Source of the DNA: Promethearchaeota archaeon
GTDB lineage: Archaea; Asgardarchaeota; Lokiarchaeia; Sigyniarchaeales; SOKP01
DNA: 64,000 nt
Reading direction: 5' to 3'
Assembly (NCBI GenBank): GCA_016926735.1
Contig: JAFGOA010000036.1
Coordinates: 1 to 64,000, forward strand
Both the position numbers and the translations under genes were made by a program. This document shows positions 14,036 through 61,604 of the stretch, in pieces. The notes below the pieces were generated by a model, which worked only from the letters and a program-made list of their open reading frames with translations, was not told where the DNA came from and did no database searches. Each line of letters starts with the position of its first letter. Position 1 is the first letter of the stretch.

Positions 14036-14416
14036 TTAAGCTGGAAAGTTATAGGAACATTTTTTACAAGTAATCTTTTTCTTATATATCTTTATTCCTC
14101 CCATTTGATGAATTGGGGGTTGAGACCTATCTTCCCTCTCATCAAAATCAGTACCTCCGCATTCAGGACATACTCTTCTTCCTTCTACAGGAGGGGCTAC
14201 TTTAAGCCTTTCTTCTTCTTTCTGTTTATCTATGACTTCAGAAGGTTTTAATCCTCCTGGAGCTGTTTCTGCAGCAGGAGCTGGTGTTGACGCAACTGGA
14301 GTTGGTTCTGGCTCTTTTGGAGCAATAGAACCACTTGAACTGGAACCTAGTACTTTATCTAATTTATCATTTATGATTTCAAGTAATTTTATTACTTTTT
14401 CTTCAAATTCACTCAA
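14036..14416 (-). CDS. Small zinc-ribbon protein with Pro/Ala-rich linker
   Basis: Unrecognised protein of 126 residues. An N-terminal amphipathic helix (about 1-22) is followed by a Ser/Pro/Ala/Glu-rich flexible stretch (about 24-55) and a C-terminal zinc ribbon with C83, C86, C117 and C120. The ribbon closely matches the one that ends the gelsolin protein at 1852-2826: both start EGRR(V/I)CP, have a central IH and a KK before the second cysteine pair. The start is a TTG at 14416 with GAGGAG upstream. It is less AT-rich than its surroundings, which suggests that it is well expressed. Function unknown. Confidence 0.75.
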   Translation of the reverse strand: MSEFEEKVIKLLEIINDKLDKVLGSSSSGSIAPKEPEPTPVASTPAPAAETAPGGLKPSEVIDKQKEEERLKVAPPVEGRRVCPECGGTDFDEREDRSQPPIHQMGGIKIYKKKITCKKCSYNFPA

Positions 14417-14859: not shown

Positions 14860-17187
14860 TCAATTTTTTTGTCTCATTGGAGTGAAAATATCAAAAAATT
14901 CCCTTTTTAACTTAGTATTCAATTGAAATTTTATTATTATTTTATTTCCTGAAAGAGTATTAGCATGAATATTATTAAAAGATTCTCCAAATCCTGTAAA
15001 AACAACAATATCTCCATTCTTTAAATTAGAATCTAATTTATCATTGTCTTTCACCCGGAGATACATTCCAGGTTTAATATCATATAAATTATTAATATTG
15101 TGAATACTTGAAAAGGAATAAGTTCCTGCATATTGCTCAATAACATAGTCATATAATTGTTTTAAAGGCTCATTTTCTATTTCTACAACTTCTCCTTTAA
15201 TTCCTCTTTTAGCAATTAAAAGAGCCGCAATAGCATGATCAACAAAGCCTTTACTTTTTACTTCACTAACTAATTTACCTTGCTGTAAATGAAAAATCGC
15301 TTCTTTAGTTGTCTTATACTCATCAACGAGAAATATTTCTGGTGGTTTAAAATGTTTTTTGCTTGAATTATTATATTTAGATATCTTTCTATCCATTTTA
15401 TCTTTAGAAAATAGATGTCCTTCTTTTGTTTGATTTGGAATATTAAAATAATCTATCAATAAATCGATAATGAAATTAGAACCAGGACCATTCCCGATAA
15501 AAATTCTATTTATTAATTCCTTTTCATTTCCAAGGAATAGATCTAATTCTTTTTTAATGATAGAAATAGCACCTAAACGAGCTTTTGCATTTTCTATTTT
15601 ACTTTTAAGATTTACATACCATAAAGAAGGGAGTTCTGATTTCTCTATTAAGCAAAATCCAAAATGTCTCGTCCCAGGATCAACTGAAAGAACTCTACCA
15701 GTTTGTTGAAAATTGAAAATACTTATTTCGGCTTTACCATTAGAAGTCTTCATAAGAGAGTTAAAAAAAAATTCAAACTGTTCATTTTTGATCTGTAGAA
15801 AGAAAATATTTGTATTTGATTGATACAATACCTCAACATCATATTTTTGAATAATAGGATAGATTTCATGAATATTTTCAATTTTTACAATCACATCTTG
15901 ATGTGGAATAATTTTAATTAACTTAACTTTCTCTATAGCCTTAGCTATAGCTTGAGCAATATTATCTTCATTATTTCCAGAGAGAACATCAACATGCAAA
16001 CCATCTAAATGAAATGCTTCATATGCGGCAGATGAACCTAAAATATCATAAATCTTCTTTTCATTAGTACCATTTCTGGTAATCGTTAAAATTCTTTTAA
16101 ATCTTGGAGCAATTTTCACTTGAGCACCATTGGATTTACCAGTACTCTTTTTATTTATTGTTATTATTCCTTTTATTTTAGTTCCAATAATCTTAAAATC
16201 AATTAATTTCTCTAAATTCTCTTTGATAAAGTCAAATTGAACATCACCTAAAACCTGTATGTTGATATCTTTTTTATCAATGTAAAAATTAAATGATGGA
16301 ATTATTGTTTTTAGATCTTCTAAAATTTCAATACCCATTTTGAATTTAAAAGGATCATTAATATGGATAAAATATTCCTTTCTTGGTTGGATTTCAGACA
16401 TTAAACCATTAATTTTACTAGAAATAAAGTTTCCTCTAATATATTTTGTCCCTAAATCAAATTTCTTGTTAAGATTTAAAGAAATTTGAATAATGTCCCC
16501 TTCAGTAGCATCTTCTAAAGATTGAGTATCTAAAGAATACATATGTTTAACTCTTAATTTTTCAGTGATGAAACTATTAGTTTTAATTGTTCCAGAAAGA
16601 ATTCCTATACTAATCAAATCTCCCAATCCCTTTTTATAATCATATCCTAATATAATAAATTTAAGATCTGATTTGTAATTTTCTCGCCTTTTAGAATATA
16701 ATTGTATTCTTTTAATTAGGTTTTCTATACCTATTTTTTTTTTTGATGAGGTTTCAACAATAAAATACTGGTCTGTTGTTAATTGTTCTAAGTTTTGTTT
16801 AATTTTTTCTATAGATACATTTGGTAAATCCATCTTTGTCCCCACAATTATCATAGGTAGTTGCATTTTAGTAGCTATATCGAATAACCAGTATGTGCGT
16901 GCTTTAAATCCTTCATTGGCTGCAGCTATCAATACTAAGACATCAGTAAATTCTAAACCTAGAGCAATACTACCTTGAAAGTCAATATGACCCGGAGAAT
17001 CTAAAAAATTTAACAATAAATTTTCCTTTTTAAGATAAAATTGAATGACTTTAAGGGATACAGTTGTACCATGATTTAATTCAAAATCTAATTTATCTGG
17101 AAATTTACCAACGATAGCATTTATCAAAGAACTCTTACCATGCTGACTGTGACCTGCAATTAGAACATTTAAAACTCTTCTATTCAT
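14860..17187 (-). CDS. Translation-factor-like GTPase fused to a RuvX/YqgF-like domain
   Basis: A 775-residue protein of unusual build. Residues 1-165 are a translation-factor-type GTPase: P-loop GHSQHGKS (12-19), DSPGH (63-67), TKMD (117-120) and ETSSKKKIG (145-153). Residues about 170-265 look like the EF-Tu domain II barrel and about 270-480 like EF-G domain III and later ferredoxin-like folds. Residues about 498-665 are an RNase H fold of the RuvX/YqgF kind: VDPGTRHFG (502-510), IGNGPGS (564-570), VDEYKTTKEA (621-630) and VDHAIAAL (649-656), which supply the acidic residues D503, E623 and D650. The last 100 residues are a beta-rich tail. It may act on ribosomes or rRNA. I know no such fusion; the substrate is inference. 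Confidence 0.75.
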   Translation of the reverse strand: MNRRVLNVLIAGHSQHGKSSLINAIVGKFPDKLDFELNHGTTVSLKVIQFYLKKENLLLNFLDSPGHIDFQGSIALGLEFTDVLVLIAAANEGFKARTYWLFDIATKMQLPMIIVGTKMDLPNVSIEKIKQNLEQLTTDQYFIVETSSKKKIGIENLIKRIQLYSKRRENYKSDLKFIILGYDYKKGLGDLISIGILSGTIKTNSFITEKLRVKHMYSLDTQSLEDATEGDIIQISLNLNKKFDLGTKYIRGNFISSKINGLMSEIQPRKEYFIHINDPFKFKMGIEILEDLKTIIPSFNFYIDKKDINIQVLGDVQFDFIKENLEKLIDFKIIGTKIKGIITINKKSTGKSNGAQVKIAPRFKRILTITRNGTNEKKIYDILGSSAAYEAFHLDGLHVDVLSGNNEDNIAQAIAKAIEKVKLIKIIPHQDVIVKIENIHEIYPIIQKYDVEVLYQSNTNIFFLQIKNEQFEFFFNSLMKTSNGKAEISIFNFQQTGRVLSVDPGTRHFGFCLIEKSELPSLWYVNLKSKIENAKARLGAISIIKKELDLFLGNEKELINRIFIGNGPGSNFIIDLLIDYFNIPNQTKEGHLFSKDKMDRKISKYNNSSKKHFKPPEIFLVDEYKTTKEAIFHLQQGKLVSEVKSKGFVDHAIAALLIAKRGIKGEVVEIENEPLKQLYDYVIEQYAGTYSFSSIHNINNLYDIKPGMYLRVKDNDKLDSNLKNGDIVVFTGFGESFNNIHANTLSGNKIIIKFQLNTKLKREFFDIFTPMRQKN

Positions 17188-25229: not shown

Positions 25230-25640
25230 CTACCAAATTGCATCTTGAAATTTCTTTACGGCATCTTTTAATGATGTTTCAATATGTTTTTCAAAATCAG
25301 TAAATATAGAAACGTCATAGTCCCAATTTGATAATTTTTCTCCATATATTTCATAGAATTTACGCGATATTCTTTCCAATTCTTGCTTTATTTTTTTTTC
25401 TTTTTCTTTATTAGCAGTATTTGCAATAAATAATAGATCTTTATGTTTGATAATTGTAAATTTTTTATTTCTTAATTCAAAGTTTGAAATACCTCCTTCT
25501 ACTATCGTCTCAGCAAATTGGTTTATTGCACTCATTAGGGCTCCAAATAATTGATCATTGATTTTTGAATTATAAACATGACTATATACTGTTATCCCAC
25601 TACTAGTTAAAATCCATAAATCTTGTATTATTTTTCCCAT
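25230..25640 (-). CDS. Longin-like domain protein
   Basis: 136 residues, a single alpha/beta domain. The first strand DLWILTSSGITVYSHVY is followed by an amphipathic helix (LFGALMSAINQFAET), the strands NFELRNKKFTIIKHKDLLFIAN and a long helix (KKIKQELERISRKFYEIYG). This beta-beta-alpha-beta-beta-beta-alpha order is that of longin/roadblock-type folds, which in eukaryotes serve trafficking complexes and GTPase regulation and are abundant in Asgard genomes. The same pattern ends the 7TM protein at 32782-33906. It has no membrane segment and is probably a cytosolic adaptor for small GTPases; the partner is unknown. Confidence 0.65.
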   Translation of the reverse strand: MGKIIQDLWILTSSGITVYSHVYNSKINDQLFGALMSAINQFAETIVEGGISNFELRNKKFTIIKHKDLLFIANTANKEKEKKIKQELERISRKFYEIYGEKLSNWDYDVSIFTDFEKHIETSLKDAVKKFQDAIW

Positions 25641-43805: not shown

Positions 43806-45050
43806 ATGGCAAAAAAACCCAATTTGAAAAGCGAAGATGTGATTACAGAATCTGATAGTAACACAATTGAATTTATTCTTAAATTCTTTAGAGCTAAATC
43901 TCTTAATATTGATAAAGAGAAAAACGTAGTTATTATAAAAGGAATTTTAAATAATCCTATTGAATCCTTTAGTTTCTTAAATAAAAAAGAAGTAGATTTT
44001 ATTAAAAAAAGTTTAACTGTAACAAATCTCAAAGATCTATTGGAATATAAGAATAAAAATCTCTATGATTATATCTCATTTGATAATCTCAAATCAACAG
44101 AAAAAGCAGGTATTGAGATTAAAGAATTAGAAGAAAAAATACAGAAAGCAATAAATATCACAGTAATTGCTGATAAATTAAAAGAAAATTCAGTCTCTTT
44201 GGATAAAGAACAACAAAAAATAATAATCGCAGGATTAGATCAAGCAGGTAAAACAGCCATCCTAACTAAGTTTGGAGGTAGATTTGGTCTTAATGAATTA
44301 GCAAAAATTAAACCAACTAAAAAAGTAGAAAGAAGAGAAATTAATACAGATAGTTTTACAATATTTCTTTGGGATTTTGGAGGGCAGAGTATTTATCGAG
44401 AAGAATATCTTGAAAATCCAGATACTTATTTTATAGGTGTAGATTTATTAATTTATGTAATTGATATTCAAGATCCAGACAGATTTGACGAATCATTTAC
44501 ATATTTAAAAGGAATTGTTAATGCTTTAAAAAATTTAGAAGAAAATCCTTACATATTGATTTTCTTACATAAATATGATCCTGATATAAGACAAGATCCA
44601 AAAATAGAACTTAATGTCGAATTTGTAAAAGATAAACTTAAAGATTTCTTTGCAGAATCGACTTTTTCTCATGAAACATACTTATCCTCCATATATTATT
44701 CTGTTGCAAGAGAACCCCAATTTGCTAAATATATGAAAGAAATGATAGCTAATGTTGGTAATTCTGTTGATAATCCTACAATTCAAAAAGTTGAAGGTTT
44801 AGCTAAGACATTAGAACAAACCCTTAATGCTGTAATACGTCTTTCAGAAAGTATGTCTCTTGAATTAAACCAATTAGATACACGATTAAGGGCTCTCGAG
44901 TCTGGAGCTGTTCATATGGCTCAGCAAGGGGTCCCCATAGAAATTAGTCCAACAGTGCAAACAAAAGAAATAGGAGGAGGAAATGTTCGAGTTAGAGTTC
45001 TTGATGAATTAAAGGACTTATTTGCAAAAAGAAAAAAACTCGATTTTTAA
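43806..45050 (+). CDS. Arf/Rag-like small GTPase with N- and C-terminal extensions
   Basis: 414 residues. The GTPase core is at about 138-305: P-loop GLDQAGKT (143-150), WDFGGQ (189-194; the Arf/Gtr form with Gln after GG), HKYD (255-258) in place of NKxD, with the Arf-like IIIAGLDQAGK lead-in. The first 137 residues form a helical extension without family match, and the C-terminus (about 320-380) is a coiled coil with a low-complexity stretch and basic end. There is no lipidation cysteine. Arf- and Rag/Gtr-like GTPases with extra domains are common in Asgard genomes and are thought to serve membrane or signalling complexes with LC7/longin partners; the partner here is unknown. Confidence 0.85.
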   Translation: MAKKPNLKSEDVITESDSNTIEFILKFFRAKSLNIDKEKNVVIIKGILNNPIESFSFLNKKEVDFIKKSLTVTNLKDLLEYKNKNLYDYISFDNLKSTEKAGIEIKELEEKIQKAINITVIADKLKENSVSLDKEQQKIIIAGLDQAGKTAILTKFGGRFGLNELAKIKPTKKVERREINTDSFTIFLWDFGGQSIYREEYLENPDTYFIGVDLLIYVIDIQDPDRFDESFTYLKGIVNALKNLEENPYILIFLHKYDPDIRQDPKIELNVEFVKDKLKDFFAESTFSHETYLSSIYYSVAREPQFAKYMKEMIANVGNSVDNPTIQKVEGLAKTLEQTLNAVIRLSESMSLELNQLDTRLRALESGAVHMAQQGVPIEISPTVQTKEIGGGNVRVRVLDELKDLFAKRKKLDF

Positions 45051-49937: not shown

Positions 49938-50501
49938 ATGAGTAATTCAAATATTGATATTGTTTTTAAAATATGTATTTTTGGGGATGGTGGTGTTGGT
50001 AAAACAACATTAATTAAGAGATATTTAACTGGTTTATTTGATGATTCTACAGCTATGACTATTGGATTAGATTTTCATACAAAAAGAATCAAAATTAAAG
50101 ATTTAAATATCGCACTTCAAGTATGGGATTTTGCTGGAGAAGAAAGATTTCGTTTTTTATTACCTTCTTATGTAGGAGGTGCAAATGGAGGATTATTTAT
50201 GTTTGATATTACTCGATTTACAAGTCTAAAAAACTTCCCTGATTGGTTAGAAATATTCAGAAATGGATATAATAAAAACAACAGTACAAATAATGTAGAT
50301 TTAAAACTACCCGTGATTATGGTAGGTGGAAAATCAGATCTAAATGATAGTCGAGCAGTTTCAATAGAGGATGCTGAGGAAATAGTGCAAAATGAAAATC
50401 TATATAGTTATATTGAATGTTCTTCAAAAACGGGTGAGAATATAGAGGAAATTTTTAATCAAATTGTATTATATCTGCTGAAAGTCTCAAATATATTTTA
50501 A
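49938..50501 (+). CDS. Rab-like small GTPase
   Basis: 187 residues with all GTPase motifs: P-loop GDGGVGKT (16-23), switch I TIGLDFHTK (41-49), WDFAGEERFR (63-72; Rab-like WDTAGQERFR with Glu in place of the catalytic Gln), GGKSD (130-134; NKxD variant) and CSSKTG (161-166). The close match of switch II to Rab/Ras families is typical for Asgard. There is no C-terminal Cys, so it is not prenylated in the eukaryotic way. The Gln-to-Glu change may slow hydrolysis. It stands alone, with an LC7 gene 1.6 kb to the left. Confidence 0.9.
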   Translation: MSNSNIDIVFKICIFGDGGVGKTTLIKRYLTGLFDDSTAMTIGLDFHTKRIKIKDLNIALQVWDFAGEERFRFLLPSYVGGANGGLFMFDITRFTSLKNFPDWLEIFRNGYNKNNSTNNVDLKLPVIMVGGKSDLNDSRAVSIEDAEEIVQNENLYSYIECSSKTGENIEEIFNQIVLYLLKVSNIF

Positions 50502-55604: not shown

Positions 55605-58600
55605 ATGTGTGCTGAAAATTTTAGTAAACAACTGATCTCAAGATTTGCTGAACTGGAGTGTGAAAGACAATTATTTTTAGACATAGCTCGTAAATTTCCT
55701 GAGAAATGGTATATTGATCAAAGAAAAATTGAACCGGCCAAACATATTCGTAAAAAGGTTGAATTATTAAAAAGATTAGGAAAAGAATATGAGGATATTG
55801 TTTATTCTTATTTGTTAAAACTAGAAGGTGTACAATATAATGACAGTGGCCCAAGAATAGTTGAGGATACCTATCTTAATCCTTTTTTATTTAAACAATT
55901 ATATGAAGAGAAGAAAAAAGCTCATAATATAGATTTTATATTACTTGAATTTCAATATGAAATACCTGAATCATTTTTTCTCGATCTCTTTCCTTTAAAA
56001 AACAAAAATGATACAATACCTGTAAGTTATGCGGAACAAAGACCTGATATTATAGTTATAGGAAATTCTCTATGTAAAAATCAAGATTCTATTTTTGAAT
56101 TAAAACCTAAAGGAATAATTAGAGAAGTTCCTAAAGAAGAATTAAACTATCGATATGGAATAAATATTATTGATATTAAAAATGTAAGAGAAGACCACAT
56201 TGGAAAAAAACAATTTGTAGAGATTTTCTATTATCTTTATACCTTAAGTTATTATTTAGAGAATTATAATTTAGAGAAAAAATTCTTTATTAATATCGAA
56301 TTCAATGGAATTTTTCCCAAATATGATAATAAAATTTTAAAAGATATTCATTATCTAAATGATATTATAGATTTAACAATTTTAATTCATTGGAAAGAAT
56401 CACATCAACTTTTTGTGGATATTATCGAAAAGATTAAGAATTTATGGTTAAAATCTCCAGTTTTAATTGATTCTATACCTGTGAATATTCAAACAAATTG
56501 TGGTTATTGTTTTTTCTTAGAGGATTGTAAAAAAACACTCGGATTTGATGGTATAAAAGAACCTAAAGATTGGTCATTAAAATTGTTACCGCACACATCT
56601 AATTCTATTTCCCAAAAATTAATTGAAATGAACTTTAATACTATTGCTGATGTTGCGAATAATATATATAAAATACCCATCAGTAGTACTCCTGAACCTA
56701 TATATTCAGAAATACCTCTTCTAGAATTAAGAGCTAAATCTCTTTTATTGAATGAAGAAATTAATCCAAAATCAGGACTTATTTATACTTATTCACTCCC
56801 TAAATTTTCATCTTTCTCAGTTATTTTTGCAGTAGAAACTGATCCGGCTAATGAAAGAGTGTATGCAGCAGGTTTTCTTGTTGAAATGACAACTTCACCA
56901 AATGCCCCCTTTAGCACAGTATTTGATAATTGGTGGTCTATTTGGAAAAGATCAATGATTAACAATACATCCCTTTCAGAAATTCAAAATGATCTAAATA
57001 GATATCTTATAAGAGAAATATCAATAGAAGAGGTTAGTTGGTTTTTCAATCTTCTCAAAAAACTAAAAAATATGATTATACTTCTAAATGGTGAAGAAAC
57101 AAAAAAAGGAAAAAAAAGAAAATCTACGTATGTTTTATATCAAATTTCTGCTGTTAATGAAGATCATACAAATAAGTCTGAAGCAAAATTTACGAAAGAA
57201 GTAATAAAAAAACTTCATTATATCCTTGAGTTATGTAATACCGTGGAAAATTACGTAGTTGTTGAAGGTTTAAATTCAGGGGATTATTATGGACCATCAA
57301 CTAGCTTTTTTTATTGGTCTAAGAGACAATTAGATAATTTTCAAGATATGTTGGAAAGAAATTTAGAGGAGATAGTCAAAGATATTCCTATATTCCGAAA
57401 ATATCTCAAGATTTTATTTTTGTTTAATCCTTCTGACTCAGAGGTTACCAATCCATACCAACCAAAAAAATTATTTAATGTTCAAAAGTTTTGTGAAACA
57501 ATTTTAGGAGTCCCTCTTATTATTGGTTATACTTGGCATGAAATTGCATATAAACAATTGGGATTACGTTCTAATAAAGATTATTGGATTCCTCATTTTA
57601 ATTATATGGATTTCAATAATTGGTATGAAATGATATTAGAAGAAGATCCAAATAAGGTTGAAGAAATTAAAAATGAAATACGTAAACAAATTATGCATAA
57701 AATCAGAACAATTAATCGGCTTAGATTTAAATTTCAAACTGAAAGTAAACATGTAATTTCTAAACATGCCAATATTATTAGTAGAAATGTGATAAAAAGA
57801 ACAATTTTAACCTCTGATTTTCATCCTATCGCAAAAGTTTGGTATTTATTCTCAAGATTAACAGGTGCTATAGATCAAATTGAAAAAACAGAAATTCGTA
57901 CTACTTATCCTGAATTCAGTATAGGTAAAATGGATGCTGCTAAAGTTAGTAATCTAAAATTGCATAAAATAAGTAATAAAACATACAATACATTTGAATT
58001 AAAGGACTTATCCAGTAATATGAAAATTGATATTGGTGATAGATTACTATTGATTCCAGAGTTTAAAAGAGATATTAGCTCTAATAGACGATTATTTCCT
58101 TGGATAATTACTATAGATGAAATATTATGGTCCTCAAAAATTAATGGATATAGAGTAAAAACTAAACTTATTTTTAGTGAGAATAAAGGAGAAGATAAAA
58201 TAAATGAACTTAAATTTGCAAATATAGAGACTCTAGATTGGTATCTATATCCTTTATCATTAGATGCTTGGTCAAGTAAATTATATAGCAATAATGGTTT
58301 ATTAGAAAGAAATAATATTGGAAAATCATGGCTTGGCCATCTACTATCATATATATGGAATATTCAATCAAAAGACAAATTAAAATGGCCTGAGAACTGG
58401 GTTTTTTCTGGACCTTCTGTCTATCTATACACGCCACTCCAATTGAATAGAATTAAAGATAAAAATACAAAATTAGATAGTGTAGATTTATTATCTAAAA
58501 TTTATCCGAATCCAGATCCATCACAAAAAAAAGCTATTAATTTAGTATTAGAAAATATAATATCTGCCATTCAGGGACCACCTGGAACAGGAAAATCTCA

Positions 58601-60092
58601 GACAATTACAACTTTAATTGATGAATACTATGAAAGATGTTTATTAAATAAAAAACATTCAATACGGATATTGATAACTGCATTCTCTTATGCGGCTCTA
58701 AGAGTTATAATAGACAAAATTCGAAATGCTAAAGATACTTTTGGTAATCCCACAAGTATATCCAAGCTTCAAATGGTCTTTTTAAGATCAAAATACCAAA
58801 AACCTATTAAAAATAAAAATGATGAGAGAAAAGTTGATGATCTTGTACGTGTTGGAAATTCATGGAAATTTAATGAGGAATCACGTATAGTCACAAATAC
58901 AAATCCTCTTGAAAACTCCTTGGAAGATAATTTTATTATGTTTGCAAATGCTCATCAATTATATTATTTACCTGAACGAGTTAAAGATAATTTTTATTTT
59001 GATTTAATATGTGTTGATGAAGCAAGTCAACTCCCTGTTGATTATTTTATATCAAGTTTACAATTTTTAAAAAATAAGAAATTTTTTATGAAAGAACCAG
59101 AAAAGACATTAAAAACTAAAATTGAGTCAAAAAATAATGAAATTCTTGGAGAACTAGAATTAAATTATGATGAAGATATAATTCCTACAAAAGTAATTAT
59201 TGTAGGGGATTATAATCAATTACCTCCTGTTCAACCTGTGCCTCCTCCTAAAAACCTCAAAATAATATTAGAAAGTCTTTTTGCTTATTATGTTAAAAAT
59301 CACAAAATTCCTAATGTACAACTCCAAATAAATTACAGATCGAATAGAGATATTGTGGAATATACATCCCAACTTGGTGTCTATAAGAATTTGAATGTAG
59401 ATAAAAAAAATATTAACAAATTACTTTTAGGTGATTTAGAAAGAGTTAAAAAAGATTGGGTTAAAAAAATGTTAGATCCAAAAAAAGCAGTTATCACTAT
59501 AATACATAATAGAAATTATGAGATTGGAATAAGTACTTTAGAATCTAAAATTGTAGTAAATCTCCTTAAAGGTTATTTTTCGATGATTAATCCTAAAAAT
59601 GAAGAAGAGGAAAGAATATTTTGGAAAGAGTATGTAGGAGTTGTAGCACCTCATAATGCTCAAGGAAGATTAATTATTCGGCAGATACACGATGAATTAA
59701 CAAATAATATTGAGCCTATTTCAAATCTTGAACATTCAGAGTTAATGTTCCTATTAAAAAACTCTATTTATTCCGTAGAAAAATTTCAAGGTTCTGATAG
59801 AGAACTAATCATTTCATCAATTGGCCTTTCAGATCGAGATCAAATCTCTGCTGAAAGTGAATTTATTTATGATCTTAATAGATTCAATGTTCTTACTTCA
59901 AGAGCAAAGTCTAAAATTATTTTAATAGCTAGTAAAAGATTTCTTAAATTTATTCCCAATAATAGAGAAATTATGAAAGAAGCTGCTCAAATAAGAAGAT
60001 TTGCGTACGAATATTGTAATAATTTTATAAATATTCAATTAAAAAATGAAAAAAATAAGAATGAAAAAGTACAATTAAGATATAAACATTAA
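55605..60092 (+). CDS. Dna2-like Fe-S nuclease plus SF1 helicase
   Basis: 1,495 residues. The N-terminus is a RecB/Cas4-type nuclease: RPDIIVIG (about 146), IIDIKNV (about 188) and QFVEIFYYLY (about 204), with C19, C299, C302 and C308 placed like the 4Fe-4S cysteines of Cas4/AdnB/Dna2. At about 385-520 an RNase_H_2-like domain (FAVETDPANERVYAAG) has an Ala in place of the first acidic residue. The C-terminal half is an SF1B helicase: GPPGTGKS (about 991), VDEASQLP, GDYNQLPPV, NYRSNRDIVE, VEKFQGSDRELI and NVLTSRAKSK (about 1430). Such proteins resect or trim DNA. It is 18 bases before mre11. Confidence 0.85.
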   Translation: MCAENFSKQLISRFAELECERQLFLDIARKFPEKWYIDQRKIEPAKHIRKKVELLKRLGKEYEDIVYSYLLKLEGVQYNDSGPRIVEDTYLNPFLFKQLYEEKKKAHNIDFILLEFQYEIPESFFLDLFPLKNKNDTIPVSYAEQRPDIIVIGNSLCKNQDSIFELKPKGIIREVPKEELNYRYGINIIDIKNVREDHIGKKQFVEIFYYLYTLSYYLENYNLEKKFFINIEFNGIFPKYDNKILKDIHYLNDIIDLTILIHWKESHQLFVDIIEKIKNLWLKSPVLIDSIPVNIQTNCGYCFFLEDCKKTLGFDGIKEPKDWSLKLLPHTSNSISQKLIEMNFNTIADVANNIYKIPISSTPEPIYSEIPLLELRAKSLLLNEEINPKSGLIYTYSLPKFSSFSVIFAVETDPANERVYAAGFLVEMTTSPNAPFSTVFDNWWSIWKRSMINNTSLSEIQNDLNRYLIREISIEEVSWFFNLLKKLKNMIILLNGEETKKGKKRKSTYVLYQISAVNEDHTNKSEAKFTKEVIKKLHYILELCNTVENYVVVEGLNSGDYYGPSTSFFYWSKRQLDNFQDMLERNLEEIVKDIPIFRKYLKILFLFNPSDSEVTNPYQPKKLFNVQKFCETILGVPLIIGYTWHEIAYKQLGLRSNKDYWIPHFNYMDFNNWYEMILEEDPNKVEEIKNEIRKQIMHKIRTINRLRFKFQTESKHVISKHANIISRNVIKRTILTSDFHPIAKVWYLFSRLTGAIDQIEKTEIRTTYPEFSIGKMDAAKVSNLKLHKISNKTYNTFELKDLSSNMKIDIGDRLLLIPEFKRDISSNRRLFPWIITIDEILWSSKINGYRVKTKLIFSENKGEDKINELKFANIETLDWYLYPLSLDAWSSKLYSNNGLLERNNIGKSWLGHLLSYIWNIQSKDKLKWPENWVFSGPSVYLYTPLQLNRIKDKNTKLDSVDLLSKIYPNPDPSQKKAINLVLENIISAIQGPPGTGKSQTITTLIDEYYERCLLNKKHSIRILITAFSYAALRVIIDKIRNAKDTFGNPTSISKLQMVFLRSKYQKPIKNKNDERKVDDLVRVGNSWKFNEESRIVTNTNPLENSLEDNFIMFANAHQLYYLPERVKDNFYFDLICVDEASQLPVDYFISSLQFLKNKKFFMKEPEKTLKTKIESKNNEILGELELNYDEDIIPTKVIIVGDYNQLPPVQPVPPPKNLKIILESLFAYYVKNHKIPNVQLQINYRSNRDIVEYTSQLGVYKNLNVDKKNINKLLLGDLERVKKDWVKKMLDPKKAVITIIHNRNYEIGISTLESKIVVNLLKGYFSMINPKNEEEERIFWKEYVGVVAPHNAQGRLIIRQIHDELTNNIEPISNLEHSELMFLLKNSIYSVEKFQGSDRELIISSIGLSDRDQISAESEFIYDLNRFNVLTSRAKSKIILIASKRFLKFIPNNREIMKEAAQIRRFAYEYCNNFINIQLKNEKNKNEKVQLRYKH

Positions 60093-60110
60093 ATTTACTT
60101 TGAGAATTAT

Positions 60111-61604
60111 ATGACGAATATAAAATTCCTACATATTGCTGATATTCATCTTGGTAAAAGGCAGTATAATCTTAAAGAAAGATATTATGATTATTTCCGT
60201 GTTTTTAAATCAATTTTAGAAAAATCCATTGAAAAAGAAGTGGATTTTATTTTAATTTCAGGAGATCTGTTTGATAACAGAAAAATAGGTCCTATTGTTT
60301 TAACTGATGTTTTTAATATCATATCTAAATTTAAAGAGAGAGCTAAAAATAAATTAAATCGAGATATTCCTCTAATCTGTATTGAGGGGAATCATGATAA
60401 TCCTATTTATTCAACTCAATCTTGGATGACATTCCTCGCAGATCTAGAACTAATTATCCTTCTATCTGGAAAATATGATAAAAATACAAAAAAAATAATT
60501 TTTGACCCATATGACTCTAAAACTCGACGAGGAGGAAAAATAAAAATAAAAAACATAACAATATATGGTCTCCCATTTTTTGGCAGTTCTACCGCTCATA
60601 TTTTTCCTCAAATCTATGATGCAATAGAACAAAATAATGAGCAATCTAATATTTTAATGATGCATTTTGGAATTCAAGGAAATGATCCTATAAAATCAGG
60701 AATAGAAATATCTGAAAGCTTAAATAAATTAAGAGAAAAAATAGATTATCTTGCTTTAGGTCACTTTCATAAACAATATATACTTCCTAAGAAAGATCCT
60801 TGGATCTTTAATCCGGGAAGTCTAGAAATTAATGATATTAAAGAATTATTTGAAAATTATGAAAGGGGAGCCTTTATAGTAAAAATTTTAGGAAAAGAGA
60901 TTTATCATGAAGAACTAATTTGTGAAATAGGAGATAATAATAGTAATATGATTTCTAATAGAAATTTTAAACTTCTTTCTCCAATAGATATTGGTGAAAC
61001 AAAATCATTTAAAGAAACAATTGTTTTAATATTAGATTCCTTGATAAAAGATCTCCCTGAAAAAAAATCCAATTTATCAAAATCAAAAGATGATCTCAAC
61101 TGTCCAATCGTTATTTTTTCTATAAAGGGACAAATTCCATATTCAAGATTGGAAGTAAATATAAATCAATTAAAAGGGGAAATTATGAATAAATTTTCAA
61201 TTCTTGATGTAAGAATTTTTTCAACATATCTCATATCAACATTAGATGATATTATTATATCTGAAGAAAAAAAAACTATAGAAGAGATTGAAACGGATGT
61301 ATTTAATGCAATTTTAAGTGAAAATCCTCTCTTTAAAGGTATTGAAAGTGACACAATAGCATTAATGAAAAATATAAAATTTGGTCTAATTGAAAAATCT
61401 CCAAATTATTTTGAAATAAAAGAGTCTATAAAAGATTGGTTTATGTCGTATGTTGATAAATTCGACTTACCAAAAATTAATATTTTTACAAAGAGTAAAA
61501 AAATCAAGGAAGAATCATCAGAAGAGAATAATGAGGAGGAGATAGAAGAGAATATTCAAGATGAATTCGATTTGGATGAATATATAGATGATATTGACAA
61601 TTAA
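60111..61604 (+). CDS. mre11: DNA double-strand break repair nuclease Mre11
   Basis: 497 residues, with the SbcD/Mre11 phosphoesterase motifs: HIADIHLG (8-15), SGDLFDN (50-56), EGNHDN (92-97), MMHFG and GHFHKQ (with the last metal-binding histidines), and FNPGSLE. A C-terminal region (about 300-450) would hold the Rad50-binding helices, and the last 30 residues are strongly acidic. It acts with Rad50 to open and resect broken ends. It is flanked by the Dna2-like gene (18 bases) and rad50 (16 bases), so the three genes are one operon. Confidence 0.95.
   Translation: MTNIKFLHIADIHLGKRQYNLKERYYDYFRVFKSILEKSIEKEVDFILISGDLFDNRKIGPIVLTDVFNIISKFKERAKNKLNRDIPLICIEGNHDNPIYSTQSWMTFLADLELIILLSGKYDKNTKKIIFDPYDSKTRRGGKIKIKNITIYGLPFFGSSTAHIFPQIYDAIEQNNEQSNILMMHFGIQGNDPIKSGIEISESLNKLREKIDYLALGHFHKQYILPKKDPWIFNPGSLEINDIKELFENYERGAFIVKILGKEIYHEELICEIGDNNSNMISNRNFKLLSPIDIGETKSFKETIVLILDSLIKDLPEKKSNLSKSKDDLNCPIVIFSIKGQIPYSRLEVNINQLKGEIMNKFSILDVRIFSTYLISTLDDIIISEEKKTIEEIETDVFNAILSENPLFKGIESDTIALMKNIKFGLIEKSPNYFEIKESIKDWFMSYVDKFDLPKINIFTKSKKIKEESSEENNEEEIEENIQDEFDLDEYIDDIDN

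Follow-up and report, generated by a model that had tools for sequence, protein, structure and literature searches.

The locus analyzed here raises the question of whether a GTPase of the translation-factor type and a RuvX/YqgF-type RNase H domain are truly joined in a single archaeal protein and, if so, what such a protein might do. The gene in question (14860-17187, minus strand) lies in a 64,000-nucleotide stretch of contig JAFGOA010000036.1 of a Promethearchaeota archaeon, hereafter the window, and is an uninterrupted open reading frame of 775 amino acids that starts with ATG and has no internal stop. A preliminary description, made from the letters alone, had read it as an EF-type GTPase followed by a RuvX/YqgF-type RNase H domain with three named acids (D503, E623 and D650) and a beta-rich tail. 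Profiles, alignment and Foldseek show that this reading was right, and the motifs quoted in its support (GHSQHGKS, DSPGH, TKMD, VDPGTRHFG, IGNGPGS, VDEYKTT and VDHAIAAL) are all found, with the residue numbers given there (Table 1).

Table 1. Layout of the fusion gene in the window (residue numbers refer to the 775-aa protein).
Feature	Window positions	Strand	Basis
Fusion gene: EF-G-like GTPase, RuvX/YqgF-type domain and tail	14860..17187	-	775 aa; single ORF, 13-15 homologues aligned, purifying selection
G domain, residues 1-165, G1-G5 and catalytic His67 intact	16693..17187	-	PF00009 6e-25; motif residues invariant
P-loop GHSQHGKS, residues 12-19	17131..17154	-	Q15 invariant in family; compared with E. 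coli EF-G, LepA and BipA P-loops
G3 motif DSPGH, residues 63-67, catalytic His	16987..17001	-	D63, G66 and H67 invariant
G4 motif TKMD, residues 117-120	16828..16839	-	Invariant
EF-G-like domain II, residues ~166-262	16402..16692	-	Profile alignment colinear with EF-G; Foldseek of full model to EF-G/TetM
EF-G-like domain III, residues ~263-345	16153..16401	-	Profile alignment, Foldseek, model secondary structure
Shortened EF-G-like domain IV, residues ~346-428	15904..16152	-	Model strand/helix order; profile alignment
EF-G-like domain V, residues ~429-493	15709..15903	-	Model strand/helix order; profile alignment
RuvX/YqgF-type RNase H-fold domain, residues 497-668	15184..15699	-	Pfam RuvX; Foldseek of C-terminal model to RuvC and other RNase H-like folds
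Asp503, strand 1 acid	15679..15681	-	Invariant, distant L074 included
Glu623, acid after strand 5	15319..15321	-	Invariant; strand 5 placed from model
Asp650, acid at start of C-terminal helix	15238..15240	-	Invariant
Conserved beta-rich tail, residues 669-775, no known family	14863..15183	-	Without Pfam match; kept also in L074

Relatives, co-occurrence and selection

Chance or an assembly artefact can be ruled out as the origin of the fusion, since the frame is kept intact in 15 genomes plus a distant homologue, and because one frame is found in metagenome-assembled genomes from several different sequencing projects. A search for orthologues across Asgard genomes recovered the fusion from the Lokiarchaeal family to which the window belongs, in 15 genomes (among these, the homologues of G029 and G032 are cut by contig ends), and from one genome, G059, of another family of the phylum. 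The own-family homologues are 54-79% identical to the window protein over the C-terminal part, and the distant homologue (L074) is 28% identical over the part that is present; the G059 contig starts just before the last G-domain motif, and L074 shows only the end of the G domain. Contamination of G059 is not suggested by base composition (G+C of 0.447 for this contig vs. 0.43-0.46 in other G059 contigs). The start of the same contig (G059:C49; L074:1-20) reads MCIRDS and LSLIHI on the two strands, as is typical where Nextera adapter sequence has been left at the end of a contig.

The two halves travel together. A profile of the RuvX part plus tail and a profile of domains II-V, run separately on the same 228 Asgard genomes, gave clear matches in 16 genomes each, and the two sets are identical; in neither search did one half turn up alone, and the fusion is obligate in the genomes searched. 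Other archaeal and bacterial phyla were scanned by short peptide patterns, which find close relatives, and the occurrence in Asgard archaea is to be read in that light. Purifying selection acts on every domain, with dN/dS well under 1: for those pairs whose dS is usable, it lies at ~0.08-0.14 overall and at 0.07-0.19 in the RuvX part (one very close pair that was too similar and one saturated pair were left aside).

Several other matches were set aside. Weak tail matches occurred in other Asgard genomes (E 0.01-0.3), and the one that was checked (L084) lies inside a phosphorylase gene and is a chance match. RuvX matches in G042, G227 and G093 belong to Tex, a short RRXRR/RuvX-like protein and an ABC transporter, respectively. 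The genome G042, a member of another family of the same order, encodes a bacterial-type Tex of 780 aa with a YqgF-like domain (L127; G042:C1, about 3254858), which was probably acquired laterally. A 220-aa Asgard protein (L128:1195-1857) has an RNase H-like part that matches RRXRR, RuvX and Tex_YqgF and carries E-TT and KDQAAA motifs, and is possibly a stand-alone archaeal YqgF-like family.

The GTPase half

The G domain matches PF00009 at 6e-25 (88 bits, cut-off 26.5), and the G1-G5 motifs of the family (GHxQxGKSS, GTT, D(S/T)xGH, TKMD and TS) are invariant or nearly so, with the catalytic His after the G3 motif present; position 15 of the P-loop is an invariant Gln in the family vs. Asp in E. 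coli EF-G, LepA and BipA. The closest annotated families for the G domain are SelB, IF-2 and LepA, all of them far under the equivalog cut-offs. For instance, TIGR01393 (LepA) gives 73.5 bits vs. a cut-off of 533.9, with the match confined to residues 7-208, and the window protein has neither the LepA-specific C-terminal domain nor a score reaching the curated LepA value. In a tree built from G domains, the family stands on a separate long branch, with a tentative position between EF-G/LepA/BipA on one side and EF-Tu/SelB on the other.

Concerning the domains that follow, the preliminary description had called them EF-Tu/EF-G-like; the EF-G-type order II-III-IV-V is upheld, and the EF-Tu type is not. 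The family profile aligns colinearly (hhalign) with a reference alignment of E. coli EF-G, LepA and BipA plus one Lokiarchaeal EF-2, residues 3-489 corresponding to EF-G 8-681 (P 4e-19), with a gap at the G' insert and with the G domain supplying most of the score; domains II-V by themselves align weakly (P 0.0016), and a PDB profile search with them gave no match. The full-length AlphaFold model is of moderate quality (pLDDT 63.6, pTM 0.37), its succession of strands and helices is as expected for domains II, III, a short IV and V, and Foldseek of this model places EF-G, TetM, EF-2 and LepA on top (about 1e-22 to 1e-20, roughly 600-750 alignment columns). As a separate observation, one genome (G000) seemingly carries more than one EF-2-like gene (contigs C138 and C188; L002 and L003).

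The RuvX/YqgF-type half and the tail

Pfam RuvX (PF03652) matches the window protein at residues 595-658 with 20.2 bits (E 7.8e-4), under the 29.2-bit cut-off, and hence the RuvX assignment needed outside evidence. Part of it comes from the distant homologue, which matches profile positions 2-128 of 134 (E 2.9e-6, 28.1 bits vs. the cut-off of 29.2) and, taken with its neighbouring pieces, passes the cut-off with 33.6 bits; 9/15 family members match when E up to 1 is allowed. Further evidence is provided by the acids themselves. D503, E623 and D650 do not vary among the 15 aligned C-termini, L074 included, and other invariant blocks stand beside them (DPGT-H-G, G-GPG, E-TTKEA and VDHA-AA-LIA). 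The end of strand 4 reads IFIGNGPG and has no acid, E623 comes after strand 5, and D650 opens the last helix. In previous work, RuvX and Tex were described to have the second acid shifted from strand 4 to strand 5, with Tex lacking the third acid and YqgF having all three (PMC3985635), and YqgF to end strand 5 with a Glu and to carry just one acid on its last helix (PMC9601230). The window domain shows this RuvX/YqgF pattern (one acid each in strand 1, the C-end of strand 5 and the last helix, and none where strand 4 ends); it lacks the Glu that RuvC has at the C-end of strand 4, as well as the S1 and HhH domains of Tex/Spt6, and it has D650. Therefore, it is RuvX-type rather than RuvC- or Tex-type.

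The C-terminal model shows the succession of elements known from RNase H folds (three strands, helix, strand, helix, strand, helix). Block pLDDT is ~67-89 in the first half and mostly <50 at residues ~630-695. The stretch holding Glu623-Asp650 is poorly modelled, and the triad is accordingly a predicted active site. Foldseek of the C-terminal model matched several RNase H/ASKHA folds, with YeaZ the best (3e-4), RuvC at a TM-score of 0.53-0.60 by target length, and the fowlpox resolvase also matched. E. coli YqgF, RuvC and Tex gave partial alignments only with the family (hhalign), and a PDB profile search with the RNase H part gave no match. Taken together, the RuvX profile (through L074), Foldseek and the acid pattern support the reading of residues 497-668 as an RNase H-fold domain. 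The tail has no Pfam match and no PDB profile match below E 0.8, and is conserved down to L074.

The locus and its history

The fusion gene occupies one conserved locus, the neighbours of which are metabolic and signalling genes. The family loci share the same order, with genes for an FAD oxidase, an FAD reductase and DUF1667, often a dual-specificity phosphatase (PF00782), and then the fusion; beyond it, most loci carry a small zinc-ribbon protein, an ABC transporter pair and a radical SAM gene. The phosphatase gene (L048:10736-11227, minus strand, and equivalents) lies upstream of the fusion in most relatives and is absent from this position in the window genome and its closest relative. The zinc-ribbon gene (14036-14416 in the window, minus strand) encodes a small protein that is helical at its N-terminus and ends in a zinc ribbon, without a Pfam family above cut-off. 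It is conserved next to the fusion and at loci that have lost the fusion as well.

Many near-complete relatives have the same locus cleanly without the fusion gene. For instance, in G002 and G016, the phosphatase and zinc-ribbon genes stand side by side, 102 and about 130 bp apart, with the fusion absent. Hence, the fusion gene is dispensable and, since the neighbours stay where it is gone, they are uninformative on its function. Identity matrices of the neighbour genes agree with the fusion for the closest genome pairs and are star-like, and thus uninformative, at deeper levels; vertical descent with repeated loss is the simplest history. A mobile or viral gene was also considered and rejected, given the fixed chromosomal locus and that no relative was found in viral contigs (two peptide patterns), phages or plasmids.

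Elsewhere in the window, inspection by eye picked out gelsolin-like, roadblock-like and small Ras/Arf-like GTPase genes (1852-2826, 25230-25640, 43806-45050 and 49938-50501), that is, eukaryote-like genes typical of Asgard archaea, and a 1495-aa nuclease/helicase-like protein followed by an Mre11-like phosphoesterase gene (55605-61604).

Proposed function and alternatives

What could such a protein do? In LepA, domain IV is reduced, and the C-terminal domain reaches the peptidyl transferase centre and the tRNAs (PMC12787274). Because the fusion matches the LepA plan, with a nuclease in place of the LepA C-terminal domain, we favor the hypothesis of a ribosome-directed, GTP-timed RNase for particular conditions; ribosome binding, cleavage and substrate are what we infer here. 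In its broader form, the proteins would be an apparently undescribed deep lineage of translational GTPases of EF-G/LepA domain order, with a nuclease after domain V cutting RNA at or near the A site, for which we see about an even chance. A self-contained, GTP-timed ribosome RNase that represents a new deep translational-GTPase lineage in Asgard archaea and cuts RNA in the A-site cleft is a tentative proposal, although a serious possibility. Under this model, the GTP form would dock where EF-G, LepA and TetM do, in the ribosomal factor-binding site; with domain IV reduced, there would be room, and the appended nuclease domain would be brought to the tRNA-binding cleft, which the LepA C-terminal domain likewise reaches. 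There it might cut the tRNA, mRNA or rRNA of ribosomes that are stalled, damaged or under stress. Hydrolysis of GTP would then free the factor from the ribosome.

Alternatively, the protein might be a ribosome-biogenesis factor, that is, a GTPase-gated nuclease trimming precursor 16S or other pre-rRNA, comparable to bacterial YqgF coupled to a LepA-like assembly GTPase. Bacterial YqgF has indeed been implicated in 16S processing (PMC9601230), and LepA in the assembly of 30S, with final 16S 3' processing possible on 70S ribosomes (PMC12787274). However, the fusion is cleanly missing, with the locus intact, from many near-complete sister genomes, and Nob1 was found in 8/9 genomes tested, fusion carriers and non-carriers alike (the exception being G028, a draft genome with the fusion). 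Nob1 is the standard archaeal 16S nuclease, and the archaeal pathway of 16S maturation differs, which also counts against this alternative; hence, we consider it rather unlikely. For the same reasons (clean absences and Nob1 with and without the fusion), we conclude that the fusion is an accessory protein, not a general rRNA-maturation enzyme, and the clean absence fits an accessory or stress role. The earlier suggestion of a GTP-gated rRNA-processing or quality-control factor is thus plausible in outline, with general rRNA maturation disfavored.

It is also conceivable that the RNase H domain has no catalytic activity and, as in Tex, is there to bind RNA or for structural reasons, so that the protein would be a GTPase that acts on ribosomes without cutting. 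The three-acid site of bacterial YqgF is incomplete for two metals, and its strand 5 acid can point away (PMC3985635, PMC9601230); further, the tail and the RNase H domain could bind RNA. Yet the three acids are invariant down to 28% identity, as opposed to Tex, which lacks the third (PMC3985635), and homologous YqgF proteins cut RNA, the Deinococcus YqgF being an Mn2+-dependent RNase without junction resolvase activity (PMC9601230), so that an inactive domain seems unlikely to us. Finally, a DNA-acting junction resolvase or repair nuclease under control of the GTPase module might be proposed, given that some RuvX proteins resolve junctions in vitro (PMC9601230) and that the C-terminal model also resembles RuvC and the fowlpox resolvase. 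We regard this as very improbable, since the strand 4 acid of RuvC is missing, the GTPase belongs to the translational kind and carries EF-G-like domains, and no recombination gene adjoins the fusion at the family loci.

Significance and comparison with known systems

The earlier view that no described protein has this plan has held up, as neither such a fusion nor a translational GTPase with a nuclease domain was found in the open-access literature, Pfam, NCBIfam or the PDB, and the GTPase-RuvX pairing appears to be undescribed. To our knowledge, ribosome-directed RNases (toxins and no-go decay nucleases) reach the ribosome via other factors or by free diffusion. If our model is true, an EF-G-plan GTPase with a built-in RuvX-type nuclease would represent a new way to couple the state of the ribosome to RNA cleavage. 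Our results also place a RuvX/YqgF-type domain in Asgard archaea, of which the 228 genomes searched contain no stand-alone RuvX above the Pfam cut-off. The function of YqgF in bacteria is itself debated, and hence a fusion pointing to the ribosome as the likely partner machine offers a useful hint.

Among known systems, the YqgF-like domain of Tex resembles the one described here in that strand 4 has no acid and reads IGNG, the acid having moved to strand 5, but Tex lacks the third acid and has S1/HhH domains that the fusion lacks. RuvX/YqgF (PF03652) shares the RNase H fold, the acids on strand 1, after strand 5 and on the last helix, and the VDPGT, VDE-x-x-TT and VDHAIAA motifs; however, bacterial RuvX is a stand-alone protein of ~140 aa, whereas the Asgard domain is fused and mostly under the Pfam cut-off. 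EF-G, EF-2 and TetM have the same G-II-III-IV-V order and overall fold (Foldseek), in contrast to which the fusion is without the G' insert, has a shorter domain IV and a Gln for Asp in the P-loop, and carries the attached nuclease. LepA/EF4 differs in that its C-terminal domain is no nuclease and in that the fusion family appears to branch outside EF-G/LepA/BipA in the G-domain tree, but it is the best PDB sequence match and shares with the fusion the EF-G-type domains, the reduced domain IV and an extra C-terminal domain after domain V.
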